Assembly: GCA_029862045.1 (NCBI GenBank)
Contig: JAOTYE010000019.1
Span: 1-64,000 of the forward strand
DNA: 64,000 bases
Origin: Gammaproteobacteria bacterium
GTDB taxonomy: Bacteria > Pseudomonadota > Gammaproteobacteria > Steroidobacterales > Woeseiaceae
Direction: 5' to 3'
Below are positions 33,489 to 53,336 of the stretch, piece after piece. The position numbers and the translations under genes were made by a program. The notes below the pieces were generated by a model that saw only the letters and a program-made list of their open reading frames with translations, had not been told where the DNA came from and made no database searches. Within the stretch, counting starts at the first letter, position 1, and each line of letters begins with the position of its first letter.

Positions 33489-33534
33489 AAAGAATTTTGT
33501 AAACGAATGGGTGCTACCGCAATTTGTTTGGAAA

Positions 33535-33811: not shown

Positions 33812-34283
33812 GATTGACCAGTTCGGGCGGTGGATCCTGGCCTTCGGTGTTGTTACGCGTGAATCTCAGCGTTGAGCCATGCAGACCGAGGCGTCGACAA
33901 TATGCGCAAGGGCGCGGAACTGCCGACAGCGATCCACGGAAATCAGACGAACGCGATCCCGATCCGAAGCAAACATACTCGGCATTCGACGGCTCAACAG
34001 CATCAAGCTGGAGCGATCGCCCCGCTCTGAAATCGAATGCCGTCGTCTTCAGCAAACCAGCTTTCAACAAGTTGCCGAACAAACTTAAAACGGATGCCCG
34101 AAGTTGGCGGACCGCTTGCACAGTTACCATAGCTTGCGTCCGCGCACGGTCGGTGGACCCCTACAGTTGATCAATTTGACAATAGTTGACTTCAGCGCAG
34201 TGCGGGTCCACATTTGGTGGAAAATAACCACTAAAGAACGTACCCGCACTGGTCCCGATCTACGCGGCGATTCGCCGCGATCA

Positions 34284-35000
34284 ATGAACGGCACGGGGTA
34301 TTCCGGTATGCGACGTACCCTTGAAGGCACGGCGATCGGCGATTTCAGCGCCGGCGCCGCGATTGCAAACAAATTCGGTGTTCCGGGCACCCTGGGATCA
34401 TTCGGTCTCGCCCGGGACGATGACAGACTCGTGCTCCTGACGAGTCATCATGTGTTATTCGGCGCCAGAGCCGGAGAGCACGACACAGTCTGGGTCGCAG
34501 TGACCGGCCGTCAGCGATCGTTTCAGCGCGCCGCACAGACACGCCATGGCCGATGCGGAACGGTATGTTTTGGCGGGATCGACGTGCACATCGATTGCGC
34601 AACGGCCGAGCTTCGCCAACAACGCGTGCCGCACGGTTTCCAGGTAACTCCGGAACCCCCCGCGGAAACGCTGCTGCCCGGCGACCGGGTCTCCAAAACA
34701 GGCGCTGCCACGCAGACTACCGAAGGCATCGTCGTCGACACGAACCATACCGAAACGGCGTGGGTGCAGGGGCGCAAGCGCGTGACACCCGTGCAGATAC
34801 TCATCAAGTCGGCGGCGCCAGCTGATGCGTTTTCTGCCGACGGCGATTCCGGCGCCATCGTGCGAAATGCGGCAGGCGCCGCCGCTGGTTTGCTCTGGGG
34901 TATCGACCGGCGCGGGTTCGGTCTCGCCTGCCCAATAGAACCGGTGCTCGATGTCTTGCATATTCGTCTCGCAAAACTGGCACTGCAGGAGATCAATTGA
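34284..35000 (+). CDS. Trypsin-like serine protease, first gene of the seven-gene operon
   Basis: The 238-residue trypsin-fold protein has the full catalytic set in order: His in LLTSHHVLFGA near 53, Asp in GGIDVHIDCATAEL near 97, and Ser in ADGDSGAIV near 187. The ATG at 34284 leaves only a short N-terminal lead; the frame is open 60 codons further but has no family similarity. There is no signal peptide, so it probably acts in the cytoplasm. Its TGA overlaps the ATG of the next gene (TGATG at 34998-35002), starting a chain of coupled genes. It is the shortest of three proteases and lacks the C-terminal domain of the other two. Confidence 0.82.
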   Translation: MNGTGYSGMRRTLEGTAIGDFSAGAAIANKFGVPGTLGSFGLARDDDRLVLLTSHHVLFGARAGEHDTVWVAVTGRQRSFQRAAQTRHGRCGTVCFGGIDVHIDCATAELRQQRVPHGFQVTPEPPAETLLPGDRVSKTGAATQTTEGIVVDTNHTETAWVQGRKRVTPVQILIKSAAPADAFSADGDSGAIVRNAAGAAAGLLWGIDRRGFGLACPIEPVLDVLHIRLAKLALQEIN

Positions 35001-36565
35001 TGGCCTCGCGTGATGAGTTACTTGAGGCGAACACAGCGATCCGTAACGTACTGGATGCCGGGGCCGAAGCCCGACTGCGGAGTATCCCGGGTGTCCGGCA
35101 CGTGAGCGTAGGGCTGAAGATTGCCGGCGACACAATCACGGACGAGCTCTGTATCCATGTCTACGTGGCAGCAAAGCGGCCCGATGCCGATCTGCCTGCG
35201 GAGGAGCGCATACCCAAAGAGATCGACGGCGTTCGCACTGACGTGAACGAATTGCAGAAGGTGGATTTCACGGTCGACACGAACAGTTATCGCCCGCTGC
35301 AGGGCGGCTGCCTGATCGGCAACGACATCATCGATCTCGACCCCAGCGGCACCCGATCGCAGGTCGGCCCAGGAACCTTCGGTTGCACGGCAACGCGCAC
35401 GGGCGACGGCGCACCCGTTCTGCTCAGCAACTGGCACGTCCTGATGAAGAACGGGGCGCGCCTCAGCGACCCGATTTTCCAGCCGCCAATGGTCAGGATA
35501 CCTAATTTCGACGCGAACATGCTGCCGCGGCGGCCGGTCACCGACGACGACGCCATCGCCCACATTGTCAATGCGCGAATCACGAGCAAGGTCGATGCCG
35601 GCATTGCCAAGCTGGATGTGTCCTCCTGCTGTCGTTGCTGCGGCCTCGACTATAGCGACGAAATCATCGGACTTAGCGAGGGCGGCACGCCGCCCTCGAA
35701 CCAGCCCGCCGGAACCCGGGCCGCCGTGCCCGGTTCGACCGTCATCAAGGTGGGCGCCGTCACCGGCCGCACCGTCGGCAGGGTCGTCACCAATTCGGCC
35801 GGCCCGTTGGAGGGCCAACAGGACGGCGTGAACTTTACGCTTGAGGACCAGATCGAAATCGAAGGCCAGGGCGCGAGCCCGCGTTTCTCGGCCAAAGGCG
35901 ACTCCGGTTCCGTCATCATCGACGAAGACGGCTTTGTCGTCGGATTGTTATTCGGTGAGACACCCGTATCCCCCTTCCGCACCTTTGCCAACCACATTGA
36001 AGACGTGTGCGACCTGATGCGCATCACCATCAACTCGGCAGAGTCCCATGACACCGCCGGCTCCCGCGTTGCCTTCACACCCACGACCCTTCCGCCACTG
36101 TCACCGACCGGCCAGCAACTCTATGCAAAAACCCGCACCCGCCTGCTGGCCGACCCGGCTGGTGCCTGGCTGTGGTCGATGGCGGAGAAGTACCGTGAGG
36201 AGATCGTCACGCTGGTGACGACCGAGCGGCGCGTCAGCGTCGTCTGGCACCGGGTTGGTGGTCCGGCAGTGTTCGCCACCGCGCTGGAACACCTCAGAGC
36301 GGGCGACGACGACACCTTGCCCGTCCCGCCGAACGGCGTGTCGCTCGCCGACGCGCTCGAACGCCTCCGCGTTGCTTTGACGACGCATGGCAGTGACGAA
36401 CTCAAATCCGCGATCGCCGAGCATGGTTCGGCGCTGGTTTCGGCGGCGCGCGGCAGTGAGACGCTGACCGACTACCTCGAACGGTTGCGCCGGCTTGCGC
36501 CTCGCCACGAAACCGCGGCACCCGCACATCCGTTGCCCTCGTCACTGGCGAGCGACACTCTATGA
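35000..36565 (+). CDS. Trypsin-like serine protease with C-terminal WHR domain
   Basis: The 521-residue protein has an N-terminal alpha/beta-like segment (RSIPGVRHVSVGLKIAGD) and a trypsin fold: His in LLSNWHVL near 145, Asp in DAGIAKLDVSS near 200, and Ser in KGDSGSVII near 300. A distinctive Cys cluster (SSCCRCCGLD) follows the Asp. After residue 380 comes a helical domain with VSVVWHRVGGPAVFATALEH and THGSDELKSAI, also present in the next protein. It starts within the stop of the first protease gene (TGATG) and ends ATGA with the third. No export signal is seen. The role may be regulated proteolysis of partners encoded downstream. Confidence 0.85.
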   Translation: MASRDELLEANTAIRNVLDAGAEARLRSIPGVRHVSVGLKIAGDTITDELCIHVYVAAKRPDADLPAEERIPKEIDGVRTDVNELQKVDFTVDTNSYRPLQGGCLIGNDIIDLDPSGTRSQVGPGTFGCTATRTGDGAPVLLSNWHVLMKNGARLSDPIFQPPMVRIPNFDANMLPRRPVTDDDAIAHIVNARITSKVDAGIAKLDVSSCCRCCGLDYSDEIIGLSEGGTPPSNQPAGTRAAVPGSTVIKVGAVTGRTVGRVVTNSAGPLEGQQDGVNFTLEDQIEIEGQGASPRFSAKGDSGSVIIDEDGFVVGLLFGETPVSPFRTFANHIEDVCDLMRITINSAESHDTAGSRVAFTPTTLPPLSPTGQQLYAKTRTRLLADPAGAWLWSMAEKYREEIVTLVTTERRVSVVWHRVGGPAVFATALEHLRAGDDDTLPVPPNGVSLADALERLRVALTTHGSDELKSAIAEHGSALVSAARGSETLTDYLERLRRLAPRHETAAPAHPLPSSLASDTL

Positions 36566-38286
36566 AAACGCCGCAGAAGAGCAATGAAGACATCCGTTCG
36601 GACGGTGACGCGTTCATCGATGCCTATCTGAGGGCACGCGATGAACTGGGGCGGCTCGACGGCGTCGTTGCCGTCGGCTTCGGCCGCAAGGAGGTCGTAG
36701 ACAAACTTACCGCGGACCTATCGATAACAGCCTTCGTGCTGGAAAAGATACCGGACAGCGAGATTCCTCCGGATCAGCAGGTGCCGCCGACTTTCGAAGG
36801 TTACCGTACCGACGTCAGGGTGGTGCCTGACATTACGCCGGCCAAGTGTGACAACGAGGACAAATACGATTCCATCGAAGGCGGCATCCAGATCCAGGCA
36901 CGCAACGAGAATTCCTCGTTTTCCGGCGACGACGGCAAGGGGACACTGGGCTGCATTGTCAGGAAGCGCGGTAACGACAAATTCAAGAATCATTATCTGC
37001 TGACCGCCGATCATGTACTCAATACCGATAACGCCAGGCGCGGCGGCCTGGTCCATCATCCCTACGCGCCGCCAGCGGGTGATACGACGGGTAGCCAGGT
37101 GATTGCCTTTATCGAGGATTACGGCTGGCGCGAGTCGGTCGACTACACGGCCCACCGGCCCTCCGGCGAAGAGTTTCCCATGAGCGGCTACATTGACTGC
37201 GGGATCGCGCGACTCGACCTCGAAAGCCGGTGCTGCGGTATAGCGTGCAGTGCCGACAACGTGCAATTCGACACCACGATCACTGATCTCGACCCGGACG
37301 ACGCCACCAACAATACAATTGCGGACGTCAGGGACCTCAGTCTCGACTTCGCGATAGCCATGCCTCTGGACGACATCGGCACGGCGACCGACGCCAACCG
37401 TGTCGTCAAGGTCGGCCGCACCACCGGACGCACTGTGGGAATTGTAACCGCGGTCAATTCCGCCGCCCTGGACGGCGGCGACATAATTGCAGGCCTCCTG
37501 GAAGTCGAGTTTGATCCGGCATCAACAACCGATGGCGTAAACTGCAAGGGCAATGCGTTATTCATAGAAGGTGGCGATTCCGGCGCGTTGGTGCTGGACA
37601 TGAACAACAACGCGGTCGGATTGGCCTTCGGAACCAAAACACGCCCGGATGACGGCAGGATTTCCTGTTTTGCCTGCCACATCGTGGCAGTACTAGACAC
37701 ACTGCGTATCAGCATCCCAACAACCGGAGGCACAAGCCACGGCAGCACTCTCGCGACGGACGGCAGCGGCATCGCCCGCTACGGCGGCTCCATCGCCGAT
37801 GTAAGCGATAGCGGAAACGTGCTTTTCTCCTCGCAGGCCGTCGCGGGGACGCTCAAGAGCGCTTCGCCGGCATACCCCCCGAGAGAGCTTCAGCTGGTCG
37901 AGGACTTCGTTAATCGACTGCGCGAGACCAGGGACGGGCAATTTCTTCACGATGCCTATGTCCGTTCCATCCGTGAGATCGGCTACCTGATTCGCAACAA
38001 ACGCCAGGTCATGGTTACCTGGCACCGCAACAAGGGACCGGCGTTCCTGGCCGCGATTGCGGACCACCTGCGTGGCATTGCCACATCGATACCGGTCGAG
38101 ATCGATGGCATCTCACGGACGACAATGCTCACAAACTTGGAACGGGTTCTGCTCGAACACGGCAGCCGGGAGCTGCGTGACACCATCGAGAGCCAGCGCG
38201 ATGCAGTGATGCGCTGCAACGAAGCGACGACCGCCGAGGAGTGCATCCGAATCCTCGGCTATGCCGAAACAGAGGCAATCGCGTGA
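36562..38286 (+). CDS. Trypsin-like serine protease with C-terminal WHR domain (paralogue)
   Basis: The 574-residue protein has the same architecture as its upstream neighbour. The N-terminal segment ends in VPPTFEGYRTDVRVV. Trypsin residues are His in LLTADHVLN near 149, Asp in DCGIARLDLES near 212, a Cys group (CCGIAC) at the equivalent place, and Ser in GGDSGALVLD near 338. The C-terminal domain (about 440-560) has VMVTWHRNKGPAFLAAIADH and EHGSRELRDTI. It overlaps both neighbours (ATGA upstream, GTGA downstream), implying tightly coupled translation. The paired proteases may form hetero-oligomers; this is inference. Confidence 0.85.
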   Translation: MKTPQKSNEDIRSDGDAFIDAYLRARDELGRLDGVVAVGFGRKEVVDKLTADLSITAFVLEKIPDSEIPPDQQVPPTFEGYRTDVRVVPDITPAKCDNEDKYDSIEGGIQIQARNENSSFSGDDGKGTLGCIVRKRGNDKFKNHYLLTADHVLNTDNARRGGLVHHPYAPPAGDTTGSQVIAFIEDYGWRESVDYTAHRPSGEEFPMSGYIDCGIARLDLESRCCGIACSADNVQFDTTITDLDPDDATNNTIADVRDLSLDFAIAMPLDDIGTATDANRVVKVGRTTGRTVGIVTAVNSAALDGGDIIAGLLEVEFDPASTTDGVNCKGNALFIEGGDSGALVLDMNNNAVGLAFGTKTRPDDGRISCFACHIVAVLDTLRISIPTTGGTSHGSTLATDGSGIARYGGSIADVSDSGNVLFSSQAVAGTLKSASPAYPPRELQLVEDFVNRLRETRDGQFLHDAYVRSIREIGYLIRNKRQVMVTWHRNKGPAFLAAIADHLRGIATSIPVEIDGISRTTMLTNLERVLLEHGSRELRDTIESQRDAVMRCNEATTAEECIRILGYAETEAIA

Positions 38287-41200
38287 GCGAGCAGACCGAT
38301 ACCCTCGCAAGCGTTGCCGTCGAACTCGGCAAACTGCTCGAACCTCTTCGCACCGAGATAGTTGAGCCGCGCACCCGCGGGTTTTTTTCAGAGATCGGCA
38401 TCCCGCTGACGAATACCCAGGCTACGGCGCTCGGCGCACCCCTTACGACAATCGTTGACAGCACCGATGAGCTCCTGACGCTGATCCCCGACATCATCTC
38501 GGCCATCGACGCCGAAGACTGGGGCACGGTTGTAGAAAAGGCGATCCTTGCAACGGTAAAGGTCGGCGACGCTGTCATCGCAATGGATGCGCTGGCCGCT
38601 GCCGCCCAGGGACTCGCCGTTCCGGATGCAGACGTCCTGGCAAAACGCATCTTCGACGCTCTGATCGCGCGCTATCTCAACGCAATTCGCGGCCTCAACG
38701 ATGTACTGGAGTTCATCGGCCTGCTCGACCGAGAAGACTTCAATGTCGATTCGGTAGATCCGGCGAATCCGTTTTTCACGCTTCACACCTTCGATTTCGG
38801 CGCTATCGGCGACTGGCTCAGCGACCCGGCGGCCAAAGCGGCGGCACTCTACGGATGGGGGTCCGGGTTCGATGGCACGCTGCTGTTCCCGCGGCTCGAG
38901 CGACTGATTGCGCACCAGGGCCTGCCGGTGTTCTACGACGCCGCGGCGGGCAGCCTGAACCTCGTCTATGTCGAGATGCTGCCGACCACGTCCGGTGCGG
39001 CTGGTATCGAGATCCGCCTGGCCACCGACTTCGATCCGGGTGCGATCTCACTGCCGCTCGGGCCGGACGCAACGCTCGAGTTCGACGTCGCGGCGTCGAT
39101 GCCGCTCAATACGAACCTAACCATCCGCAGCGACGGCAATGTGAGCTTTACACCGCCAACGGCCAGCACCTTCGGCGGCGAGTTGGCTACCAGGCTGATC
39201 GTTCGCCGCAACCCGCCCGAGCCGTTTGTCCTCTTCGGCCAGGCGGAGAGCAGCCGCCTCGAATTCGGCGACTTTGTGTTGTCGGTGCTGGCACAGCTGC
39301 AAGCGTCAAGCGGCGGGGCCGATGGCCAGCTCGACATCAGCGGCATGCTCAATGACGGCAAGGTCGTCATCGACGGCAGCGACGGCGACGGTTTCATCGG
39401 CAAGATCCTGCCCGGTACAGAGATCGAGGCCGATTTCTCGGTGCTCATGGGCGTGTCCACCGAACGCGGCTTCTACTTCGGCGGCAGCAGCGCGCTCGAG
39501 GTCAGGTTGCCTACGCACATCGAACTCGGGCCGATCTCAATCGATGCTTTGACACTGGGTGCCGGGCTCGAGGACGGCGAAATTCCACTGAGTCTCGGCG
39601 CGGACATCGGCGCCGAACTCGGTCCTATCTCGGCCGTCGTGCAAAACATGGGTGTCACCGCGACGCTGTCCTTCCCGGCCGGCAACGCCGGCAACCTGGG
39701 ACCGGCGCAGTTCGACATCGCGTTCAAACCGCCAAACGGTGTGGGGCTGCGGGTCGATGCCGGCCCGATAACGGGTGGCGGCTTCCTGTCGCTGGACTTC
39801 GAGAAAGGCGAGTACATCGGCGCGCTCGAACTGTCGTTCAAAGGCGTGTTCACGTTGAAGGCGGTCGGCATCATCAATACGAAGATGCCCGATGGCAGCA
39901 AGGGCTTCGCGCTCCTGATCCTCGTCACCGCAGAATTCACGCCGATACAGCTTGGATTCGGCTTTACGCTGATCGGCGTCGGCGGCCTGCTGGGCCTGAA
40001 TCGATCGCTCCACTCGGATGCACTTCGGCTCGGCGTACGGACGGGTTCTGTCAGCAGCGTGCTGTTCCCACCGGACGTCGTCGGCAACATCGTCCAGATC
40101 GTCAGCGACCTCAAGTCCTTTTTCCCGATCGCCGAGGGGCACTTCATCGTCGCGCCGATGGGCAAACTCGGTTGGGGGACACCGGCCCTGATTACGCTGG
40201 AGATCGGCGTCATCCTCGACATCCCGGTGCCGCAGTTCACGATCATAGGCGTGTTGCGCGCCATCCTGCCGGAGGAAGACGCCCCGATTCTCAAGCTGCA
40301 GGTGAATTTTGCCGGCGGCGTGGATTTCGACCGCGGGCTGATCTGGTTCGACGCGTCACTCTTCGATTCCAACCTGCTGGTGTTCACACTCAGCGGCGAC
40401 ATGGCACTGCGCATCGGCTGGGGTGACGAGAAGCTGTTTGTCATCAGCGTCGGCGGGTTTCACCCGGCATTCAAGGAAGTGCCTTCCGACCTCGTCGGCA
40501 TGAAGCGGCTCGGCATCTCACTCCTGTCCGGCAACAATCCGAGACTGTCTGTCGAGACTTACTTCGCGGTGACTTCCAACACCGTGCAATCGGGCGCACG
40601 GGTTGAACTGTATGCGGGCGCCGCCGGCTTTAACGTTTACGGTTTCCTCGGCTACGATTTGCTGGTCCAGTTCAACCCGTTCTACTTTGTTGCCGCCATC
40701 TACGCGGGCCTTGCGTTGCGCAAGGGTTCCAGCGTCATCGCGGGCATTGACGTTTTCTGTGAACTGTCGGGGCCGACGCCGTGGCGCGCGCGCGGCCATG
40801 CCAAGTTCAAGATCCTCTTTATCACGATCAAGATCGGTTTCGATGAGGAGTGGGGGCAGGACCCTGACGCCCTCCCGGTCGACACGGTCGACGTACTCGC
40901 ACTCATGGAGGCAGCGGTGAGGGACGGGCGCAACTGGACGACCGCCCTGCCGAACAATGCGAGCCAGACGGTCACGCTGCGCCAGACCGACCTTCCCGAC
41001 GATGCCCTGCTGCTGCACCCGTTCGGTGTGCTCAGTGTCAGCCAGAAGGTTGCGCCGCTCGGCCTGCCAATCGACAAATTCGGCAACCAAGTGCCGGCGG
41101 GTGACACGACATTCACGATCTCTCGCGACGTCGGATCGAACGAGAACGCTCAGGAAGAGTTTGCAATAGCCAATTTCCTGGAGCTGTCCGACAACGAAAA

Positions 41201-41645
41201 GCTCTCGCGAAAGTCTTTCGAGTCGATATGGAGCGGCTTGCGTTTCGCAACGGGTGATGCTTCCGATACCGGCGCTACGGTCGACAAGGATATCGACTAT
41301 GAAATGGCCTACCTCCGCCGCAAGGTCACGGTACCAGCCGGTCGCTTCAATCTGCCGAAATCCCTGTTCGACATCATGTCCGGCGGCGGCGCGGTCATGA
41401 GCAACTCATTGTCCGTTGCGGCCCGAAAGGCCGGCGGCAACGGCCCGGCGGCCGTTGGCCTCGCCGATGGCGGATACCAGGTGGTCACCGTCGAAGACCT
41501 GTCGCCAGCGGCGGACGGGGCCAGTGCCGGCAGCCAGGCGGAGGCCTTCGCACTTCGCGATCAACTGGTCCGCGAGGATCCTTCCCTGGCCGGCAGGATC
41601 CAGGTCGTCGCCGATCATGAACTGTTCATGGACGACGTCGCATGA
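38283..41645 (+). CDS. Very large DUF6603-type protein of unknown function
   Basis: I set the start at the GTG overlapping the previous stop (GTGA at 38283-38286), giving 1120 residues. The protein is mostly beta strands with many Gly. The central part (about 530-880) matches what I know of the DUF6603 family: FTLIGVGGLLGLNRSL, VLFPPDVVGNIVQIV, GKLGWGTPALITLEIGVILD, FDASLFDSNLLVFTLSGDMA, VISVGGFHPAFKEVP. The N-terminus (1-130) is helical. No signal peptide or membrane helix is evident. The function of the family is not known. Its place after three proteases and before three huge proteins implies a multi-component assembly. Confidence 0.8.
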   Translation: MSEQTDTLASVAVELGKLLEPLRTEIVEPRTRGFFSEIGIPLTNTQATALGAPLTTIVDSTDELLTLIPDIISAIDAEDWGTVVEKAILATVKVGDAVIAMDALAAAAQGLAVPDADVLAKRIFDALIARYLNAIRGLNDVLEFIGLLDREDFNVDSVDPANPFFTLHTFDFGAIGDWLSDPAAKAAALYGWGSGFDGTLLFPRLERLIAHQGLPVFYDAAAGSLNLVYVEMLPTTSGAAGIEIRLATDFDPGAISLPLGPDATLEFDVAASMPLNTNLTIRSDGNVSFTPPTASTFGGELATRLIVRRNPPEPFVLFGQAESSRLEFGDFVLSVLAQLQASSGGADGQLDISGMLNDGKVVIDGSDGDGFIGKILPGTEIEADFSVLMGVSTERGFYFGGSSALEVRLPTHIELGPISIDALTLGAGLEDGEIPLSLGADIGAELGPISAVVQNMGVTATLSFPAGNAGNLGPAQFDIAFKPPNGVGLRVDAGPITGGGFLSLDFEKGEYIGALELSFKGVFTLKAVGIINTKMPDGSKGFALLILVTAEFTPIQLGFGFTLIGVGGLLGLNRSLHSDALRLGVRTGSVSSVLFPPDVVGNIVQIVSDLKSFFPIAEGHFIVAPMGKLGWGTPALITLEIGVILDIPVPQFTIIGVLRAILPEEDAPILKLQVNFAGGVDFDRGLIWFDASLFDSNLLVFTLSGDMALRIGWGDEKLFVISVGGFHPAFKEVPSDLVGMKRLGISLLSGNNPRLSVETYFAVTSNTVQSGARVELYAGAAGFNVYGFLGYDLLVQFNPFYFVAAIYAGLALRKGSSVIAGIDVFCELSGPTPWRARGHAKFKILFITIKIGFDEEWGQDPDALPVDTVDVLALMEAAVRDGRNWTTALPNNASQTVTLRQTDLPDDALLLHPFGVLSVSQKVAPLGLPIDKFGNQVPAGDTTFTISRDVGSNENAQEEFAIANFLELSDNEKLSRKSFESIWSGLRFATGDASDTGATVDKDIDYEMAYLRRKVTVPAGRFNLPKSLFDIMSGGGAVMSNSLSVAARKAGGNGPAAVGLADGGYQVVTVEDLSPAADGASAGSQAEAFALRDQLVREDPSLAGRIQVVADHELFMDDVA

Positions 41646-44600
41646 CGCTTACCGTCGGCAAATACACATTCAGTTCCTGGCTGCGCCGGGGAATCGGTCG
41701 GGACATTGTTGAAATCGATACCCTGGGCGCCGCGAACGGGTCAGTGCTGGAACGCGCCGTCGTGCCCGTCGAGGTCAACGTCAACACACGCCCAGTACGC
41801 AAGGAGTTCCCGCTGCTCGGTCCGGGCGACGTTATCGGTATCAGCCCCGACAACGTCGTTCGCACGGAACCGCGGCACTGGGTCACCGATGCCGAGCCGA
41901 ACTACCTGGCCTTCGTCGAATTTTACGATGAGGATTTCCTGTGGCGGTTCACGCCGGCAGACGCGGCAGGCAATCGCCTGCGCCCGTGGCTCATGCTGGC
42001 GATTCTCGAGGAAGAGACGGCTGACCAGGCTGGCGAATATACGCGCAGTGACGCCCGGCTCCCGTTGCCGTCGATCACCGTATCGTCCACGGCCGCGTTG
42101 CCGCCCCATACCCAGACCTGGGCGTGGTCGCACGTACATACCAACGAGACGTTCTCGGACGCCACCGAGTTCGAGCGGTTCCTCGATTCCCTGAATACTC
42201 CGGATCACCCGAATGCCGACCGAATAACCAGTCGGCTGATGAGTCCGCGAAAGCTGCAGCCGAACACCGCCTACGGTGCATTCGTCGTGCCCGCCTTCGA
42301 AACCGGCCGGCTGGCGGGGCTGGGACAGGATCCGCAAGCAGCAGCCGCGCAGCAACCGGCCTGGACCGACGCCGCGGGTCCCGTCGAACTGCCGATCTGT
42401 TACGAGTGGCGCTTTCGTACCGGCGAAAACGAGGACTTCGAGTCAATGGTGAAACGGCTTGAGCCGCGCATTGCCAGTTCCGCTGTCGGAATTCGAGACA
42501 TGGACGGCGAGAAGCCCGGCTGGGGCCTCACGGAAGGCACCGATATTGGCCAGATCGTACCCACGGACGCGAAACAAACGGTTATCGGTCTCGAAGGTGC
42601 GCTGAAGGCACCGTCAACAAGATCGCGGCCGTTGAACATCGACACGAGCAAGCCGTTTTTCACTCAGCTTGTCACAACGCTCAATCTGCCCGAAGAACGA
42701 CGCAACAACCCAGCCACCGCAGATCTGCCTGTCATCGCGCCGCCCATTTACGGCGAGCACCATGCGTTGACGCACGAAGTAGACGCAGCGGGTAACGGCT
42801 GGCTCGACGTGTTGAACAGCGACCCGCGCAACCGTGTTCCCGCGGGATTTGGCGTGCGCGTGTTTCGCGAGCACCAGGAAAATTACGTCGCTCGCGCCTG
42901 GGCGCAGGTCCAGCGGATCCTCGAATCGAACAAGGTCATCCACTTTGCCGCGGTCGCCATGCAGGTTAGCCAGACCGTGTATGCAAACCTGGCCGCAAAA
43001 CTCTCGCCGGAACGCTCCGTGATGTTCTTCTCCGCCGCACTGCGTAAGGTCCGCGGCTCTCCGACGACGCTGCAACACCTGCTGCAGACAAGCACATTGC
43101 CGCCGGCGGCCGTCAGCGGGGCATTGCGCCGGTTCCTGCGCCCCCGCGGCGCTTTCGCGCGACGCATCGCCCGCGCCCACCCGGCTTTTTCGCAGGCGAC
43201 GCTCGTGGCGGGTCTGGCGGACGGAACCTTGAGCGCGGCGCCGCCCCGGACGCCCGCCGGAGACCTGGCCATCGACACGGAAATCACCGACCGCGTTCCG
43301 TCGCACATCTTGCCGGCCTGGTTGCTCTGGCTTATCCGCAACCGTTGGCTGTTTGTCATTGTGCTGCTGGTCGTCGCGCTGCTGCTGTGGTTATTCGGCG
43401 GCGGCTTGATGCCGGCCGCAACGCTGGTCGTTTCGGCGGTCATCTTGGTGGCTGCAGCCGAGCGATGGGCCAGGACCTATCCAGTCGACACGAATTCCGG
43501 ACCGGGCTCGATCGTCGATCCGGAAACCGTGGCCGAAGTACTCGAGGCGACGCCGCCACGTCAATCGTTCAGATTCGTCGAAACGGATCCCGTCGTACCG
43601 CCGCAGTCCGGCGCCGGCAGGGAGGTAACGACCGACACCGAAAAGACATCCGACTCGGCAGACGCCGTAACTTTCGACCGCTTTATCTCGTTTACGCCGG
43701 GTGAACCGGGCGAAGACAGTGCCGAAGCGAAGGCGTTCCGCATCGCAGCAACCTCGCTGAAACAGCGCCTGTCGTTCGAGGCCCCGGCCGCGGAGCGCGC
43801 GACCTTCGACCTGCAGAATGCCCACGCCAAACTGACGGCGGCCGTCAATCCGCTCCGGGCGTTTCCGCGTCGCGTAAGCGCGACCGTGGGTTTCGCCTTC
43901 GACCCCGGCTGGCTGCTCGAGCCCGAGCATCTCGTCCCGGCGATGGCGTACCCCGACTTCGACGACCCCATGTACGAAAGACTGCGCGACCTGTCCTCCG
44001 AGTTGTTGTTGCCAAACCTCGAACTGATACCACCTAACAGCATTACCCTGCTGGAAACCAATCCGCCGTTCATCGAGGCATACGTATGCGGCCTCAACTA
44101 CGAAGGCGGCAAGGAGCTGTTGTGGCGCAAATATCCGACGGACCGGCGCGGCAGCTACTTCCGGCAGTTCTGGGATACCCGGGGCATCCTCGCCCGCGAC
44201 AGCGGCGAGTCCGACGAGGCCGTCTCGGAGCGTTCCAAAGACGTTACGCCGCTGGACACCTGGCCGTCGAGATCGGCACTCGGGTCCCATCGCAATCCGT
44301 TACGCCCGCCGGGCGAGCAGCTGGTACTCACGGTCCGCGGTGACCTGCTCAAGAAGTACCCGAACACCCTGATCTATGCCCAGAAAGCGCACATCGGCCG
44401 CGATGCCGAGGGCAACCCGGTGCCGAGCAGAGACCCGGTGATCGCCACCGTCGAGAGCGAAGAGGATATCGAACGCGAGATCAGGTTCCCGGTGTTCAAG
44501 GCCGCTGTCGATCCCGACATTCGGTTTTTCGGATTCGATCTTTCGATTGAACAGGCGAAAGGTGCGGAGGACCCGCAAGCAGAGACAGACGACTGGGGAT

Positions 44601-44893
44601 ACTTTTTCATCCTGCAGCAATTGCCGGGCGAGCCGCGGTTTGGCATGGACCTGGAATTCTCGCCCGATAACGATGCGGAGACGCCGATTACCTGGAACGA
44701 CCTGGCGTGGACGATGTTTGCCGAGGGCCAGCCGTTCATCGACACCGGCGTTTTGCCAGGATCATTCACACCGGCCGGTCCCGGAGAAAGCCTGGCGCAG
44801 TGGGGCAGCAACTCGGCGCGCATGGCGTCCATACTGTTCCAGGCGCCGGTCATGATCGCGGTGCACGCGACAGAAATGCTGGATGCCACATGA
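41642..44893 (+). CDS. Large protein of unknown function with a central membrane hairpin
   Basis: The 1083-residue protein overlaps the DUF6603 gene (ATGA) and begins LTVGKYTFSSWLRRGIGRDI. I recognise no catalytic domain. Two long hydrophobic stretches lie near the middle (about 557-606: RWLFVIVLLVVALLLWLFGG, then MPAATLVVSAVILVAAAE). They form a probable membrane hairpin with large soluble halves on each side. The C-terminal half has conserved-looking segments VGFAFDPGWLLEPEHLVPAM and NPPFIEAYVCGLNYEGGKEL. It is the only gene of the operon with clear membrane helices and so may be the anchor of the complex. Confidence 0.75.
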   Translation: MTLTVGKYTFSSWLRRGIGRDIVEIDTLGAANGSVLERAVVPVEVNVNTRPVRKEFPLLGPGDVIGISPDNVVRTEPRHWVTDAEPNYLAFVEFYDEDFLWRFTPADAAGNRLRPWLMLAILEEETADQAGEYTRSDARLPLPSITVSSTAALPPHTQTWAWSHVHTNETFSDATEFERFLDSLNTPDHPNADRITSRLMSPRKLQPNTAYGAFVVPAFETGRLAGLGQDPQAAAAQQPAWTDAAGPVELPICYEWRFRTGENEDFESMVKRLEPRIASSAVGIRDMDGEKPGWGLTEGTDIGQIVPTDAKQTVIGLEGALKAPSTRSRPLNIDTSKPFFTQLVTTLNLPEERRNNPATADLPVIAPPIYGEHHALTHEVDAAGNGWLDVLNSDPRNRVPAGFGVRVFREHQENYVARAWAQVQRILESNKVIHFAAVAMQVSQTVYANLAAKLSPERSVMFFSAALRKVRGSPTTLQHLLQTSTLPPAAVSGALRRFLRPRGAFARRIARAHPAFSQATLVAGLADGTLSAAPPRTPAGDLAIDTEITDRVPSHILPAWLLWLIRNRWLFVIVLLVVALLLWLFGGGLMPAATLVVSAVILVAAAERWARTYPVDTNSGPGSIVDPETVAEVLEATPPRQSFRFVETDPVVPPQSGAGREVTTDTEKTSDSADAVTFDRFISFTPGEPGEDSAEAKAFRIAATSLKQRLSFEAPAAERATFDLQNAHAKLTAAVNPLRAFPRRVSATVGFAFDPGWLLEPEHLVPAMAYPDFDDPMYERLRDLSSELLLPNLELIPPNSITLLETNPPFIEAYVCGLNYEGGKELLWRKYPTDRRGSYFRQFWDTRGILARDSGESDEAVSERSKDVTPLDTWPSRSALGSHRNPLRPPGEQLVLTVRGDLLKKYPNTLIYAQKAHIGRDAEGNPVPSRDPVIATVESEEDIEREIRFPVFKAAVDPDIRFFGFDLSIEQAKGAEDPQAETDDWGYFFILQQLPGEPRFGMDLEFSPDNDAETPITWNDLAWTMFAEGQPFIDTGVLPGSFTPAGPGESLAQWGSNSARMASILFQAPVMIAVHATEMLDAT

Positions 44894-47800
44894 CGGACTA
44901 CGCCGAAGCCGCATTGGCAGTACGCCGAGCCCGCGAAGCCCGCGACGCCGCCGCGGACGATCTTTATCGGGCACAACTAAACGGCCTGGCTCTGGATGCG
45001 GCGCGGCAGCGCGAAGCCCGGGGTGAAGGCGTATTTGATCCCACCGCGGAATCGACGCTGCGTCGGCTGCAAGGTCAACGGCAAACATCCGTAGCTCGGC
45101 GTCAGGCGGTGATGTCACGACTGGATGGGCTGGCGTCCGTGGATGCAGACGTAGATCGGCTCGAGACACGCCTGACTGTCGCACCGGAGGCAGAGCAGGC
45201 GTTGGTTGCGCGAATCGCGCAGCTCGCCAATGCACTGGAATCCACAGACGAACCCGCGGATCGGCGTCGGCACCAGGCCGAGCTGCAGACGTTGCAGCGA
45301 CAACGCGCTGCGCTGGCCAATGCGGTTTCGAACGACCGTGAGGCGCTGACGGCGGCACGCGACCAACAATCGCTGACCGACGAACTGCGCAGTGAGGCGA
45401 CTGAACTCGCCGCCAACATATCGGATATACAGCATGCCATCGAGCACGAAACCGGGCGCGCACGGGAGGTCGATCTCGACGCCGTTACCGCCGAAACAAA
45501 ACGCGTAATCGAAAATGCGAGAGACCTGAAGTCCCTGCGCGAGGCCGATATCCGGGCTGCAATGGAAGTGTTATACGGCGATCGCCCGCCGCAGGAACTG
45601 ATCGAGGCATGGGACGACGAAATACCGATCACGCTCTTGCCGCTGCGACTCGAGACCCGCTGGAAGACCGATCCCGGTGCGCCGCCCCAGCTCTGGGTGC
45701 GTGTCTATCCGGACGACATCGGCGTGCACAATCACGAACCTACGCTGACCGTGCCCGAAGTAACGCACGGACAGCTTTACTGGACCGTCACCCGGGAGGC
45801 TGCCGGCGATGCGGACAGCGAGGCGGTCGCGTGGGACGCCCTGGCGCGGCGCTTCGGCGGCAACCGCGCCGCCTGGGTCGCACGCCAGACGCAAGCACTG
45901 AACTGGGATGAAGCGCTTGCCGATACTGATGTCGTGCTCGACTTTCCGGACCTGCCGACCAAATCCGACCCGTGGACCGTGGCTCCGCACAGCCGCGTGC
46001 TGCCGGACCGATTTGTCCTGCTGGCCTGGCGCGGTGACGAACTGCGTATCAATGAAATCGGAGAAGTCGTCGACGATGTCGTGGTCCTGGGCCCGTCGCC
46101 TGTCGATGCCACTGTTGGTGAAGCGGCCATCGGGCACGAGGACGAGAACAATACTCTCGAGTTCGGCGAGGCGTTTCGCTGGGTGCGGGATTTCGACAAC
46201 GCGGTCGATCGTGGCATGGGATTTCGGGTGGACATCAGTGCGGAAGACGTGGACGCGGGCTTTGATCGGTTGCTGGTGCTTGGTCTGAAGTTGTCGGCCG
46301 ACGCGGCGGAGGCCCAGGCGATGGTCGAGACGCTGATCGCCAATCACCAATATTCAGAAGACGGCTTCGAACTGATCACGCAGGGCACGCCCACGAACAA
46401 CACCGGCGGCAACGATTCCGGTTACACGCGCGCCGGTGAGACCGGCGTCGCCGGCGCGAGCCCGCCGCGGTTTACACCTGGCGACGATCGTTCAGCGGCC
46501 AGCGACGGCCAGCGATTCGCGGATTTTCTCGGTATCGACTACACGACACTGCAGCACGTCGATGGCAGCGACCACAACGACCATGTCGAGGCCGTCGCCA
46601 TGAACCGTGCGCTGTACGCCGGTACGCTGGGTTATTACTTCGATCACATGTTGAACGAGGTCATCGACGAAAGCACCTTCAACACACTGCGCCAGCGCTT
46701 TACTGACCAGGTAACCGGCCGCGGACCGGTCGCTGCCATTCGAGTCGGCGATCAACCCTACGGCATCCTGCCGACGAGTTCGATGGCGCGCTGGCGGACG
46801 CCCAAAATCAGGGAGGACGATAACGGGAACGCGATGCCGGCAGAGCCGGTGGAGCGCGCGCTGGTGAGTACCCTGCGGGCATTTGACGAGGCCTGGACGT
46901 CGTTGCTGCCCGGCGTGTCCCAGCTCGGTAGCGGGGAAGACCCTTCGGCGAGTTCGCTCAAAATACTCGGTTTGCACCCGACGTCGGCGGAGTTCCACCA
47001 CCGCGTGGGTTACAGCTACGACTACCTGCGAAACCTCGAGGAGTTTGCCTGGGGCGGCGAGAACATCGGCGACGTTATCCGGATGGCCCTGGAGGGCATG
47101 GCCGCGCGCGGTGTGTTGCACCGATTCGGCTATACGAGCGCGCGTGGGGACGGTACGTCGAAACCCGACCCACTGCTGCTGCAGCTTATCTGGCGGCACT
47201 ACCAGACAGCACTCGACCCGCTGCAACTCATCGACGGCCAGCCCTTGTCGGAAGAAGCGACCCTCCAGCCCTACAACGCGGCGGGCGGTAATTATCTTGA
47301 CTGGTTGATTGCCAACTCGGCAGATGCCGCTGCTCTCGAGGCCCAGGATTTCGACGGTGCGGACCGGCCAACGGCACTCTTATATATGTTGCTGCATTTT
47401 TCGCTCGTCATGGAGGGCAGCCGCGCCATTCATCACTGGCTGGGTGACCGCGAGGTGAATGCGGACGAGCTGCTGCGCTCGCGCAAATTCCTCAATGTGA
47501 CGGGTGCATCCCCTTCGATCTGGGAAGTGTTTCACGCGCCGGCAAATCGTGTTGTAAGGACCGAGACTGCAACAGACCCACTGTATTCACTGATGCACGC
47601 GCCACAGCAGGCAGCAACCACCGGCAAATGGGTGCAAAAGCAACGCGCGGCGCTGGAAACGCTTCGGGAACTGCCAACGGCGCGTCTCGAACGGGCGTTG
47701 GTCGAACATGTCGACACGCTCAGTTTCCGCCTCGACGCCTGGCAAATAGCGCTGTTTGCCGATCGGCTGCAGAAACAGCGCCGCCTGCATGGGCCTGTCG

Positions 47801-50220
47801 AAGAACGGCGTACGGGTCTGTACCTGGGCGCCTACGGCTATCTCGAAAACCTGCGCCCCAGCGATCGCGGTCGCACGCGCGTCGAGGAACCGGTGGAGGA
47901 CGATGTTCTGCCGCAAGGCGCGAGGCCAGACCTGTACAGAGAGGCCGGGAATGGCGGGCGCGTGATGACGCCGACGCTCAATCACGCCACCGCCGCGGCA
48001 TTGCTGCTCAGCGGGTATCAGACGCATGCGGTACCGGAGGACCCTGACGCACTTGCCGTCAATCTCTCATCCGGACGTGTTCAACGGGCGAAAGCCTTGC
48101 TCGAGGGCATTCAGAACGAACAATCCCTGGAGTCGCTGCTAGGTGCGCAGTTCGAGCGCGGACTGCAGGACTGGACGACACGATCGGTCAATCCGGTCGT
48201 CCTGAGCCAGCTCAAACCGCTGTTTCGTGCACGGTTCCCAATCGTGCGCACGCGCGTGCCGCAGGCCGCCAACGCGGCGGCGGGCGCCGCGGAGATCGAG
48301 GAAGATTACAAGGTGGTGAACGGCTTGGCTCTCGCGCAGACGACGACGCCGTTCCCCTGGGGGATTGCCGAGTTGTCTTCCCTCAGTGCCGCGCAGCAGC
48401 AGGCGCTGCAAACGGAAAAGGATGCGATCGAGAATACGCTCGATGCACTGCGCGACCTGCTGACCGCCGAATCGGCGTATCAGCTCGCGCTCGGCAATTT
48501 CGACAGGGCGGCCGCTGTTCTGCAATCCACCGGCAATGGGTCGTTGCCTCCGGATATCGAGGTCATAAACACGGTACGGGGTACGGGTGTCGCATTCACG
48601 CAGCGACTCGCGGTGCAGTTCGACGACAACGTCGTCGCGAATCCCTGGGGTGCAACACAAAGTGCCCGCGCCGACCTCGATCCGCCACTCAATGCGTGGC
48701 TCGGCGACTTGCTGGGAGCGCCGGATCTAATTGCCTGCCACGTAGCGGCGGTTGATGCCGACGGCGCGGTCATCATCGACGGCGGCGGGCCCGTCGAAGG
48801 CACGATTACACTTGAAGACCTCGACCTGCAGCCCGTCGATTTTGTTTACCTGGTGCGCAGCCAGTCGGAGCCAAGCGGCGCGGCGGAACTCGAGATGCGG
48901 GTACGGTACCGATTCGTTCGCGACCGTGCGTTGCCCGACGACACGATTGTTCGTATCGCGTTTGCCGATGACGGTGGCGTTGCGGACATGCGCTCGTTTG
49001 CGGAAGTTCTGCCGCTGGCCGATCGACTCCGCAAACTTCTTGGTACAGCACGACCGCTCAACGCCAGCCATTTCGACAGTGCGTCCCACGATGCTCCCGG
49101 AAATCCGGACAACCCGGGTCGTATCGATACGGCGGAACTGATCGCCCGGATTACCGCAAGCATCACCTCGGTTCGCGCCTTGTTCCCGTTGCTGCAGACC
49201 GCCACCGATGCTGCGCGGCTGGCCACCGACACCGCAGTCCTCGACGCGCTGCGCGATGAGCTGTTTAAAGTCGCCCGTGGCGGGGTGTCCTTTGCGATGC
49301 CACGTTCGGCGGTCGGGGCCGGGGCGGAACCGCGCGACGTGCTCGTCCAGCAAGCAGATGAGCTCCTGGCGCGAGCCAACGTGCTGGGACCGACAAGCGA
49401 TGAGTTGCTCGGCAAAGCGGCGGCGGCAACTCGCGCAGAGCAGGTTGTGTCGGAACTGGAGCTCGCGGCGAGGGCCTGGATGGGCGGCGATCTGCTGATT
49501 GTGCCGCGCTTCGATTTTCGCGACCCGGCAACGGTTAACGCAGCCCATGCGGCCAGCAACGATTTGTTGCATCACGTTCGCGATGTCGTGGGTGTCCCGT
49601 TACCGATGGAGGAGTGGCTGCACGGTGCGGCCTGCGTCCGGGAGCGCGTGGGCGATTTCGAAATCGCCCGTGCGATGGCTGACGCGGTGCGCGATGATCC
49701 GCTGCCGCTGGCACCTGTGCAGTTTCCGTTTCGCAGCGGAGATGCCTGGCTGGGTGCGGAATACCCGCCCGACATCGAGGTAGTACACGACACCGTATCC
49801 GTCGTCCGCCACCTTCCGCAGGGCTTTGACGCGGCCGGCGCGCAATGTGGACTGCTGATTGACGATTGGACGGAGTCCGTGCCACTGCGCGAGCAGGTCG
49901 CAGGACTGTGTTTCAATTTCGATGCCCCCGACAGCGCGCCACCGCAAGCGCTGCTGCTGGCGATCACCCCCCGCGAGACCGGCAGCTGGTCGTGGGACGA
50001 TCTCGTCGATACCGTTCTCGATACATTCCGCCGCGCAAAATTGCGTGCTGTCGAGCCCGACGCCATCGGCGAATTGCCCGGTATCGGTACCCTGCTCCCC
50101 GCGGTTGTAGCCGAGTTCAGCACCAGTGCGGCAAGCGTGTCGCTCGACTATTCAATGACCGTACCGGAGATCGGCGCGCCCGTTGTTCAAATGATGGCCA
50201 CGCCGTGGACCGAAGGATGA
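44890..50220 (+). CDS. Giant 1776-residue protein of unknown function
   Basis: The start at 44890 (ATGA overlap with the previous stop) gives 1776 residues; an in-frame extension upstream lies inside the previous gene. The N-terminal 230 residues are Ala/Arg/Glu-rich coiled coil. A conserved-looking segment follows, ITLLPLRLETRWKTD (about 246) with LWVRVYPDDIGVHNHEPTLT. Further on are AAIRVGDQPYGILPTSSMAR (about 615) and several helical Ala-rich zones. I have seen this type only as large hypothetical proteins and assign no reaction. The Met-Thr start, length and operon position suggest a scaffold or structural component. Confidence 0.75.
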   Translation: MTDYAEAALAVRRAREARDAAADDLYRAQLNGLALDAARQREARGEGVFDPTAESTLRRLQGQRQTSVARRQAVMSRLDGLASVDADVDRLETRLTVAPEAEQALVARIAQLANALESTDEPADRRRHQAELQTLQRQRAALANAVSNDREALTAARDQQSLTDELRSEATELAANISDIQHAIEHETGRAREVDLDAVTAETKRVIENARDLKSLREADIRAAMEVLYGDRPPQELIEAWDDEIPITLLPLRLETRWKTDPGAPPQLWVRVYPDDIGVHNHEPTLTVPEVTHGQLYWTVTREAAGDADSEAVAWDALARRFGGNRAAWVARQTQALNWDEALADTDVVLDFPDLPTKSDPWTVAPHSRVLPDRFVLLAWRGDELRINEIGEVVDDVVVLGPSPVDATVGEAAIGHEDENNTLEFGEAFRWVRDFDNAVDRGMGFRVDISAEDVDAGFDRLLVLGLKLSADAAEAQAMVETLIANHQYSEDGFELITQGTPTNNTGGNDSGYTRAGETGVAGASPPRFTPGDDRSAASDGQRFADFLGIDYTTLQHVDGSDHNDHVEAVAMNRALYAGTLGYYFDHMLNEVIDESTFNTLRQRFTDQVTGRGPVAAIRVGDQPYGILPTSSMARWRTPKIREDDNGNAMPAEPVERALVSTLRAFDEAWTSLLPGVSQLGSGEDPSASSLKILGLHPTSAEFHHRVGYSYDYLRNLEEFAWGGENIGDVIRMALEGMAARGVLHRFGYTSARGDGTSKPDPLLLQLIWRHYQTALDPLQLIDGQPLSEEATLQPYNAAGGNYLDWLIANSADAAALEAQDFDGADRPTALLYMLLHFSLVMEGSRAIHHWLGDREVNADELLRSRKFLNVTGASPSIWEVFHAPANRVVRTETATDPLYSLMHAPQQAATTGKWVQKQRAALETLRELPTARLERALVEHVDTLSFRLDAWQIALFADRLQKQRRLHGPVEERRTGLYLGAYGYLENLRPSDRGRTRVEEPVEDDVLPQGARPDLYREAGNGGRVMTPTLNHATAAALLLSGYQTHAVPEDPDALAVNLSSGRVQRAKALLEGIQNEQSLESLLGAQFERGLQDWTTRSVNPVVLSQLKPLFRARFPIVRTRVPQAANAAAGAAEIEEDYKVVNGLALAQTTTPFPWGIAELSSLSAAQQQALQTEKDAIENTLDALRDLLTAESAYQLALGNFDRAAAVLQSTGNGSLPPDIEVINTVRGTGVAFTQRLAVQFDDNVVANPWGATQSARADLDPPLNAWLGDLLGAPDLIACHVAAVDADGAVIIDGGGPVEGTITLEDLDLQPVDFVYLVRSQSEPSGAAELEMRVRYRFVRDRALPDDTIVRIAFADDGGVADMRSFAEVLPLADRLRKLLGTARPLNASHFDSASHDAPGNPDNPGRIDTAELIARITASITSVRALFPLLQTATDAARLATDTAVLDALRDELFKVARGGVSFAMPRSAVGAGAEPRDVLVQQADELLARANVLGPTSDELLGKAAAATRAEQVVSELELAARAWMGGDLLIVPRFDFRDPATVNAAHAASNDLLHHVRDVVGVPLPMEEWLHGAACVRERVGDFEIARAMADAVRDDPLPLAPVQFPFRSGDAWLGAEYPPDIEVVHDTVSVVRHLPQGFDAAGAQCGLLIDDWTESVPLREQVAGLCFNFDAPDSAPPQALLLAITPRETGSWSWDDLVDTVLDTFRRAKLRAVEPDAIGELPGIGTLLPAVVAEFSTSAASVSLDYSMTVPEIGAPVVQMMATPWTEG

Positions 50221-50224
50221 GCCA

Positions 50225-51997
50225 ATGGTGCAACTGACAGAAGTAATGCTCAACACTTCGGAGCTCATGTTCGAGTGGTATCGCGAGCCTGCGATAACCG
50301 CATACAACCGTCTCGAAGCGCGCCCTCGTGCGCACGACTTTACGCGCAGCCTCCGCGCCGAGGTGCGTGATCCGCTGTGGATGCTGACGCGCCAATGGCA
50401 GCTCGGTGAATTCACCGCCGAAGACGCAGGGACACCCATCGACGCGCGGCTGGTAACTCGAAAACTGAGCGTCGATCGTGTGCAGCTCGGCGATGGTTCG
50501 CCGCAGACCTACGACGACAGTGTCCCGCTCGAGGCGGCCGTGGAGCGTGAACAGGTCCCGTTCACGCACACCCTGCGTGTGCAGGCAGCGCAATACTTCC
50601 TGCGACTGCACACGGCCGCGCTGCGGCAAAAGTACCTGCCGCGTTACAAGACACAGTATCCGCTCGTGCAGGATGCTGAAGCGGAATTCCGCGGCCAGGT
50701 CGACGGCCTGAATTTCTATCTTGCGACCCGACGCGCATCCTTCGATGGGGAACGGGTGCTGGCAGCGATCGACGATGGGACCTTTTTTGCGGACGTGCCG
50801 ATTGACGCCGGCGACCTGGTGGACATGCAGCGAATCACCGCAGCATTCGGACAGTGGCTGCAGCGGCAATACCTGCAGCCGAGCACCGCCGCGCCGGCCG
50901 CGTGGGACTCTTCCAAACTGAGTTATCCGGTGCAGGCCGCCGCCCCCGGCGACGGCGACGAGCAGGTTGTCCTGAGCGCGCCTCGTTATCCCGGTGGACG
51001 CCTCGACTGGTATTCGTTCGAGGTGGACGAGGGCGGGGCTGCGCTGGACATCGCTGACGACGACTATGTGGCTCCGCCGCCGGTCCGGGAGGCGATCTCG
51101 TTTTTACCCGTGCCCGCATCGTTCAAGGGCATGCCGAACCCGCGTTTCTGGGAGTTCGAGGAACGCCAGGTCAACTTCGGCGCGCTGGATGCCCAGACGA
51201 CCGATCACCTGCTGCTGGTGTTCGCAGAACTGGGGCTCGTGTATGGCAACGACTGGTACGTAGTGCCTTACTCGATACCGGTTAATTCCCTTTGCGAAGT
51301 TCAAAGCCTGATCGTGACGGACGTGTTCGGCGATCGATTGTTAATCGATGCTGCTGACGAAGGCGAGGGCAACGACTGGCGGCGCTGGAGCGTATTCGGG
51401 CTGAGCAACCGCGACGAGCCGGGGAGTACCAACGAACAATTCTTCCTGCCATCGGCTGTAGGCGCAATCCAGGAAAGCGATGCGCTGGAGCGTGTGCAGT
51501 TTGCGCGCGACGAGATGGCAAACATGGTGTGGGCGGTAGAGGAAGTGATCCCGGATGCAACCGCGCGCGGCATCAACGGGCACGACGCCGCGGACAAGAC
51601 AGCCATACTGCCTGACGAGATTGCAGATTCGCCAGCATCCATCCGCTATGTCCTCGGCACGACGGTGCCTGAGAACTGGATTCCGTTTGTGCCCGTCCAC
51701 CGTCCTGGAACCATCCAGGACATCACCTTCCAGCGGGCCGCCATGCCGACGATGGGTGTGCCGCCGCGCGAGATTATCAACGCGAAAGGGGTGCTGTTGA
51801 ACGAACCCGGGCTGCCCTGGTTTATCAACGAGGAAGAAGTTCCGTTCACAGGCACCACAATTGCACGCAGCTACCAGCGTGTGCGTTGGTACGATGGCCG
51901 GACCTTCGTCTGGATCGGTCGGCAGCGCCAGACCGGGCGTGGCGTCGGCGGCAGCAACCTGCGCTTTGACCAGATACTGCCCACGGAGTCCGCATAG
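50225..51997 (+). CDS. Large hypothetical protein, last gene of the protease/DUF6603 operon
   Basis: The 590-residue protein starts 4 bp after the giant gene. Its N-terminal part carries the striking motif RDPLWMLTRQWQLGEFTAED near residue 45, characteristic of a family of bacterial hypothetical proteins. Later segments include FWEFEERQVNFGALDA and FGLSNRDEPGSTNEQFFLPS (about 395). No catalytic motif, signal peptide or membrane helix is visible. It closes the seven-gene coupled operon, and the only uninterrupted tRNA-derived repeat lies 230 bp downstream. Function unknown. Confidence 0.75.
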   Translation: MVQLTEVMLNTSELMFEWYREPAITAYNRLEARPRAHDFTRSLRAEVRDPLWMLTRQWQLGEFTAEDAGTPIDARLVTRKLSVDRVQLGDGSPQTYDDSVPLEAAVEREQVPFTHTLRVQAAQYFLRLHTAALRQKYLPRYKTQYPLVQDAEAEFRGQVDGLNFYLATRRASFDGERVLAAIDDGTFFADVPIDAGDLVDMQRITAAFGQWLQRQYLQPSTAAPAAWDSSKLSYPVQAAAPGDGDEQVVLSAPRYPGGRLDWYSFEVDEGGAALDIADDDYVAPPPVREAISFLPVPASFKGMPNPRFWEFEERQVNFGALDAQTTDHLLLVFAELGLVYGNDWYVVPYSIPVNSLCEVQSLIVTDVFGDRLLIDAADEGEGNDWRRWSVFGLSNRDEPGSTNEQFFLPSAVGAIQESDALERVQFARDEMANMVWAVEEVIPDATARGINGHDAADKTAILPDEIADSPASIRYVLGTTVPENWIPFVPVHRPGTIQDITFQRAAMPTMGVPPREIINAKGVLLNEPGLPWFINEEEVPFTGTTIARSYQRVRWYDGRTFVWIGRQRQTGRGVGGSNLRFDQILPTESA

Positions 51998-52976: not shown

Positions 52977-53336
52977 GGCGAGAATTGCTTGTTCAATTCT
53001 GAACACGATGACGACGCCAGGAATGCCCGAGCGCTGCTGCGCCACATAACGGCGCACAGCGTCATTCCACAACCTGCCTTCATGTTCGGTTACGCAACAA
53101 GGCCATGCTGACCTCGAAAGACCAAGTGCTGTTCGCGGTTGCACTCGACCAAAAATGGGCTATATTGAACATCGAGCTTCGCGAATTTTTTTCGACAGAC
53201 AATGCGGACAGGATAGACGGGACCCGCGGTCTGGCAGCGCTCATGGATTCGCAAGCTTGACTGAATCGCCGGTTTTTGCCCTGTTCCGAATCTCGCTTTA
53301 GGTCGTCGCGTGACCAGGACATCCAAGGAGGAGATC

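Follow-up and report, generated by a model that had tools for sequence, protein, structure and literature searches.

Tc (ABC) toxin complexes are large multi-protein devices that work without nucleoside triphosphates (NTPs) and whose enzymatic part is exchangeable. According to Geller et al. (2021, PMC8213781), 1.9% of genomes contain extracellular contractile injection systems (eCIS), with an enrichment in Chitinophaga and Algoriphagus and in large environmental genomes. Among the known effectors of conflict systems are peptidases of the trypsin-like, caspase-like and subtilisin-like types (Kaur et al. 2020, PMC7159879). The subject here is a seven-gene operon (g1-g7) on the forward strand of a gammaproteobacterial genome of the Woeseiaceae (contig JAOTYE010000019.1 of assembly GCA_029862045.1), at positions 34284-51997 of the 64,000 nucleotides that were analysed and that are called the window in the following. 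By comparison with related loci, the seven genes fall into two parts, a conserved core of four genes (g4-g7) and three exchangeable proteases (g1-g3) that stand outside this core.

The likeness to Tc toxin complexes lies in the working principle only: no Tc or TcA/TcB/TcC-RHS Pfam family is present in g4-g7 at E<=1, and g7 has no fold match to the Tc structures compared, of which XptA1 reaches only E 0.75. With eCIS of the PVC/Afp type the system has in common the environmental hosts with large genomes, archaea included, and occasionally the neighbourhood (PMC8213781), but genes for a sheath, tube, baseplate or cap are all absent from the operon; g4-g7 gave no Pfam or PHROG match to contractile systems (eCIS, type VI secretion systems, phage tails), and Pvc16_N was not found genome-wide. 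Conflict systems with effector swapping, such as vWA-MoxR, likewise combine a conserved core with varying peptidase effectors, but the cores are NTPases there (PMC7159879) and not here. No publication was found that names DUF6603, the family of g4, or that combines the types of enzyme found with this core, and the gene system is previously undescribed.

The conserved core

The seven genes, together about 5,900 residues, all point in the same direction, and from g1 to g7 they are joined by the overlaps TGATG, ATGA, GTGA, ATGA and ATGA and, before g7, by a gap of 4 bp. This coupled arrangement had been reported in a preliminary description made from the sequence alone and is confirmed; the "fixed stoichiometry" concluded there does not follow from gene overlaps. 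The core consists of g4 (38283-41645; 1120 residues, GTG start), g5 (41642-44893; 1083 residues), g6 (44890-50220; with 1776 residues the largest) and g7 (50225-51997; 590 residues).

A profile scan of 84,980 species with g6 as the sole query gave 317 relatives, the best 80 of which were kept. These 80 loci belong to 13 bacterial phyla, and plasmids, searched by tblastn with g6, add Gemmatimonadota and Halobacteria, the block being present there in Gemmatirosa (Gemmatimonadota), Streptomyces, Rhizobium and haloarchaea. Both sources together contain 73 complete loci, in all of which g4, g5, g6 and g7 lie together on one strand, with this order in 72; in the exception, L042, the order is permuted to g5-g6-g7-M64 peptidase-g4, and the enzyme still stands directly before g4. 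Because only g6 was used to collect the loci, the fact that g4, g5 and g7 accompany it argues independently for a functional unit, and the genes are indeed linked and not independently distributed, as the preliminary description had presumed. Since the order is kept among the homologues, the frames of the operon are true genes and not products of chance. Unannotated families of 600-1,800 residues (g5-g7) hence travel together in fixed order over very large evolutionary distances, something seldom seen except in essential complexes and known machines, and the earlier idea of a large protein apparatus without characterised counterpart is supported.

The hosts of the core are environmental, many of them polymer degraders, and include haloarchaea and a Paenibacillus. 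The Gemmatirosa copy, with 61% identity in the g6 tblastn, also has three proteases, its g2 counterpart being 48.5% identical. Rhizobium lusitanum has two genes in place of g5 and two in place of g6, and these splits mark domain borders of both proteins. Downstream of the core, no conserved gene and no immunity gene was found in the loci compared; in two loci a complete-looking eCIS starts directly after g7 (L017, 17676-25394; L093, 19797-25574). A phage origin was rejected, as a g7 profile scan of viral contigs found no relative. The only phage record with g5-g7, MT835531.1 (L210; "Bacteriophage sp.", UNVERIFIED), has a guanine-plus-cytosine content (G+C) of 75%, contains genes for a regulator of the AfsR/SARP type and for a BtuF-like protein, and is probably mislabelled actinobacterial DNA.

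The exchangeable enzyme slot

The locus is modular in the order and co-occurrence of its core, in the exchange of its cargo and in a domain that is restricted to the system. Directly before g4, 63 of the 67 g4 genes with enough upstream DNA have a same-strand open reading frame (ORF) of at least 200 residues. Trypsin-like peptidases as in the window occupy 13 of the 58 slots that were classified, so that proteases of this kind do not always accompany the core, a point that the preliminary description had wanted to see checked. The other classified slots contain PhoD (15), M64 peptidases (10), caspase-fold-like proteins (9), subtilases (7), Kelch oxidases of the galactose/glyoxal-oxidase type (3, one of them with a tyrosinase) and phospholipase D (1); several further slot families are of unknown kind. 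On a g7 tree of 56 loci at least 25 cargo changes are required (minimum possible 6, mean after shuffling 35), and the cargo labels are somewhat clustered, which is what exchange superimposed on descent should give. Sister cores with unrelated enzymes occur at full support, e.g. L054 (subtilase) and L074 (trypsin), L056 and L075, or L053 (trypsin) and L087 (PhoD), and G427, which belongs to the genus of the window's organism, combines the same core with M64 peptidase cargo. In G459, two trypsin-like genes are found downstream of g7 instead. With unrelated enzymes at one slot the function becomes testable, as the core should act on whatever enzyme sits there.

The caspase-like cargo of nine loci has an [IV]xIR[GA]C-type motif in all nine and, by pattern, an H motif in five, and the members scanned gave no Pfam match; from these motifs the family likely consists of caspase-fold (clan CD) peptidases. 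The enzyme classes in the slot are mostly of extracellular type, and the PhoD cargo of Streptomyces is fused to a peptidoglycan-binding domain. No obvious signal peptide was seen on cargo N-termini in a crude hydrophobicity scan, which is not a trained predictor.

The window proteases and their shared domain

The cargo slot of the window is filled by g1 (34284-35000; 238 residues, with ATG start and a possible alternative in-frame TTG start at 34104), g2 (34997/35000-36565) and g3 (36562-38286). All three match the phage-protease family phrog_20754 (E 1e-12 to 1e-31; 2.9e-12 for g1, 3.6e-31 for g2 and 1.9e-20 for g3), g1 and g2 also match Trypsin_2 weakly, under its cut-off, and g2 has a NAL1-like N-terminus by a weak Pfam match. 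The H, D and GDSG motifs are kept in each of them (in g1 as TSHHV for H and IDCATA for D), and with these catalytic motifs in a phrog_20754/S1 context g1-g3 are trypsin-like peptidases, just as had been described. Their catalytic domains belong with the NAL1-like and phrog_20754 peptidases, from which g2 and g3 differ by an additional C-terminal domain that is restricted to neighbourhoods of the core.

This domain of about 120 residues, at 36125-36490 in g2 and at 37900-38256 in g3, looks helical and has the motif WHRxxGPxF; g1 is without it. It also ends the subtilase cargo in Cyanobacteria, Nitrospira and Saprospiraceae, and in Dyadobacter it stands alone as an ORF of 128 residues. No meaningful PDB match was found for it, and Pfam does not recognise it in g2 or g3. 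Among 399 genomes of the phylum it is present in the window's own only, and there in this operon only, while 50 host genomes and plasmids contain 22 occurrences in 15 genomes, 21 of them no more than about 16 kb away from g7 and the remaining one at a contig end. Because the domain occurs on protease folds that are not related to each other, and in a single gene neighbourhood only, it is best read as a candidate docking or sorting domain.

The core proteins

The membership of g4 in DUF6603 (PF20248), which had been proposed, is clear (E 2.8e-134; 449 bits with a cut-off of 27, profile positions 2-501 of 502). We know of no function for this family, and the core operon is its first functional setting. 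There is a second context of DUF6603, which differs from the present one: in L101-L104 (G235, G261, G031, G246) DUF6603 proteins of up to 3,200-3,500 residues adjoin a protein of 1,100-1,300 residues with the motif GVHLHWAMPDAL, for which homology to g5 or g6 was considered and not found.

AlphaFold2 models cover g4 and g7. The g4 model (mean predicted local distance difference test, pLDDT, 83; predicted template modelling score, pTM, 0.57) consists of a helical bundle at the N-terminus (about residues 5-145), which is followed by some 45 long antiparallel strands (about 215-860) and by a C-terminal part of poor model quality. Its best Foldseek matches are a Deinococcus S-layer barrel, ushers, LptD and apolipoprotein B (E 1e-5 to 1e-2), and parts of the strand region have a strong two-residue hydrophobic period. 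The modelled strands may be described as a "long amphipathic beta-meander", with no proof of a barrel; with regard to a barrel it also has to be considered that the haloarchaea and Paenibacillus among the hosts have no outer membrane. The model of g7 is confident (pLDDT 81, pTM 0.77) and resembles no fold of the PDB or of viral models at E<=0.001, and none of 73 g7 homologues matches any Pfam family. For the two proteins with models there is thus no structural match to a known apparatus, in line with the preliminary description. Fusions of g7 are seen with lamin-tail (LTD) domains in a haloarchaeon (L014, 24206-26926) and with Kelch repeats in Polyangium (L089, 14311-17385).

In an alignment of 65 sequences, g5 has two conserved halves and a variable middle. 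The central membrane hairpin noticed earlier is present in the middle of g5, at about residues 570-607 of the window copy, and at least one membrane segment is found in 33 of 65 homologues. Clear membrane segments occur only there; weaker hydrophobic stretches of g4 are mostly inside the strand region. The g5 of Streptomyces has an FG-GAP fusion. The N-terminal region of g6 is helical or coiled-coil and varies in length. No Pfam, NCBIfam, PHROG, PADLOC or PDB family match was obtained for g5, g6 and g7, so that of the "three giant unknown proteins" first described all are without known family, but g7 with its 590 residues is not giant. Homology of g5 to g6 or g7 was rejected, as were the PDB sequence matches of the g4 and g6 profiles, which are limited to designed coiled coils and other chance matches to helical sequences.

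No conserved P-loop is present across the g4-g7 alignments. The core has 0.14-0.35% cysteine, as compared with 1.04% in the neighbouring ORFs of the window, and such low cysteine is seen in many exported proteins. By the same kind of crude scan as was used for the cargo, the core proteins have no N-terminal hydrophobic segment; for g4, this was seen in 65 homologues, and an N-terminal export signal was not found.

Possible function

With some reserve, at somewhat less than even chances, we favour the view that this is a modular enzyme-carrying system, in which g4-g7 form an apparatus and the exchangeable upstream enzyme is the cargo that acts outside the producing cell. The apparatus would be conserved and independent of NTPs, and its enzyme could give way to unrelated ones without a change of the core. 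The core proteins would assemble around or beside the enzyme into one physical complex with the enzyme as payload, and in the protease lineages the enzyme would be recruited via the common C-terminal domain. The bundle and the amphipathic antiparallel strands of g4 may, together with the g5 hairpin, be the membrane-active part that forms a pore or binds lipids, with g4 in contact with the membrane, and by this part the enzyme would cross, or be placed on, a membrane that lies outside the producing cell. Such a system would have to be exported, and its targets might be neighbouring cells or predators, or it might serve as an extracellular digestive device. An action outside the cell is favoured because of the enzyme classes, the low cysteine content and the occasional LTD, FG-GAP and peptidoglycan-binding fusions. 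Still more tentatively, the system could be a new class of prokaryotic enzyme-delivery machine that is independent of phage tails, Tc toxins and known secretion systems, and that consists of four families, three of them with no known relative, an exchangeable enzyme slot and, in the protease forms, a dedicated C-terminal cargo tag. A core that moves enzymes would bring a new principle into the biology of secretion and toxins, and might also provide a new protein carrier.

Several points weigh against an enzyme carrier. No sign of an export route was found. The likeness of g4 to barrels is weak, with Foldseek TM values of about 0.15 (0.10-0.16) despite E-values of 1.5e-5 to 8e-4 for the barrel and usher matches, and the hairpin is missing from half of the g5 homologues. 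The PhoD, M64, caspase-like, oxidase and phospholipase D cargo has no shared C-terminal domain, and any docking must therefore differ there. Three loci (L013, L015, L016) have no recognisable cargo beside the core, an injection system is adjacent in 2 of about 80 loci, and Pvc16 was not found in the window's own genome.

The strongest competing explanation is a system for defence or cell suicide inside the cell, in which the four large proteins would detect an invader and activate the enzyme as effector. A conserved core with exchangeable effectors is typical of such systems, and a TPR-S/trypsin-like protein, of a kind that they use, is encoded just downstream of the operon; if this reading holds, the operon would be a new class of defence. 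The reading is nevertheless unlikely, as g1-g7 have no PADLOC model match at E<=0.01 and the core has no conserved NTPase motif, as tyrosinase, galactose/glyoxal-type oxidase and M64 peptidase would be unusual intracellular effectors, and as the low cysteine and the fusions with LTD, FG-GAP and peptidoglycan-binding domains point to the outside. Rather doubtful, too, is a scaffold for feeding at the surface or outside of the cell, by which the core would hold degradative enzymes without delivering them into others. The predominance of hydrolases and oxidases among the cargo, the environmental hosts with their many polymer degraders, and the lack of an immunity gene or conserved downstream gene agree with it, but one would not expect a single type of enzyme per locus (in the window, though, three paralogues), the lack of signal peptides, the very large size of the scaffold and the rarity of classic binding modules.

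It is quite improbable that the operon is a payload or accessory module of eCIS. Sheath, tube, CIS_tube and Pvc16 genes are found directly downstream in Flavihumibacter (L017) and in a Flavobacteriaceae (L093), and Pvc16_N is present in 25 of 48 host genomes and in 8 of 9 Pseudomonadota hosts as against 14 of 299 genomes of the window's phylum, a comparison that counts two close Nitrosomonas and takes the window's phylum to be Pseudomonadota. The window's own genome does not follow this association, and in the Chitinophagaceae, where 31 of 120 genomes have Pvc16_N, the link is suggestive but not significant (4 of 8 core-bearing genomes vs 27 of 112 others, Fisher p 0.20), for which reason an eCIS payload was rejected. 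The same environmental hosts with large genomes harbour eCIS (PMC8213781), so that shared ecology can explain the excess and is its simplest reading; in some hosts a role beside such systems is conceivable. Least probable of all is that the assembly or activity of the machine is set by its own proteases, as the preliminary description had suggested with its "controlled or matured by proteolysis". The three leading proteases of the window have intact catalytic motifs, and M64 peptidases, subtilases and probable caspase-fold peptidases fill the slot as well, but the same core occurs with PhoD phosphatase, Kelch oxidases, tyrosinase or phospholipase D; the exchangeable slot takes proteases as one kind of enzyme among several, and a proteolytic step therefore cannot be common to the core in general.

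Neighbouring DNA

The operon has a G+C of 58-68% between flanks of about 55-56%, and g7 was found in one of 399 genomes of the phylum, the window's own, and in 2 of 37 genomes of the genus, i.e. the window's and one other; because of this higher G+C and this rarity the operon DNA was probably acquired. Exact 27-nt repeats resembling transfer RNA (tRNA) lie on either side of it, at 33636 and 52246. They belong to a family of dispersed intergenic repeats, of which the window contains many copies, and were therefore not taken as attachment (att) sites, and an integration island was rejected. Many copies of this family are partial, and several hold a tRNA-Phe-like 3' half (TCGAACCACCGACACGCGGATTTTCAG); copies are found at 33520-33815, 52244-52420, 32711-32880, 22100-22191, 3209-3346, 18748-18836, 27049-27177 and other positions, and also in L209, and the exact 27-mer has one further copy on another contig.

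Downstream of the operon, at 53310-56216 and with lower G+C, a gene with weak similarity to alpha/beta-hydrolases (LCAT/PGAP1-like) is found together with the gene of the TPR-S/trypsin-like protein, which has 639 residues and matches PADLOC RT-Protease_XI models weakly; the two look like a separate conflict-type pair. Further downstream, at 57115-58578 and 59584-60786, two proteins with similar starts are encoded (CFIAMPFG and CFVIMPYG, followed by DFDAIH and DFDGIY, respectively), which by eye resemble nucleotide-sensor proteins of conflict systems.

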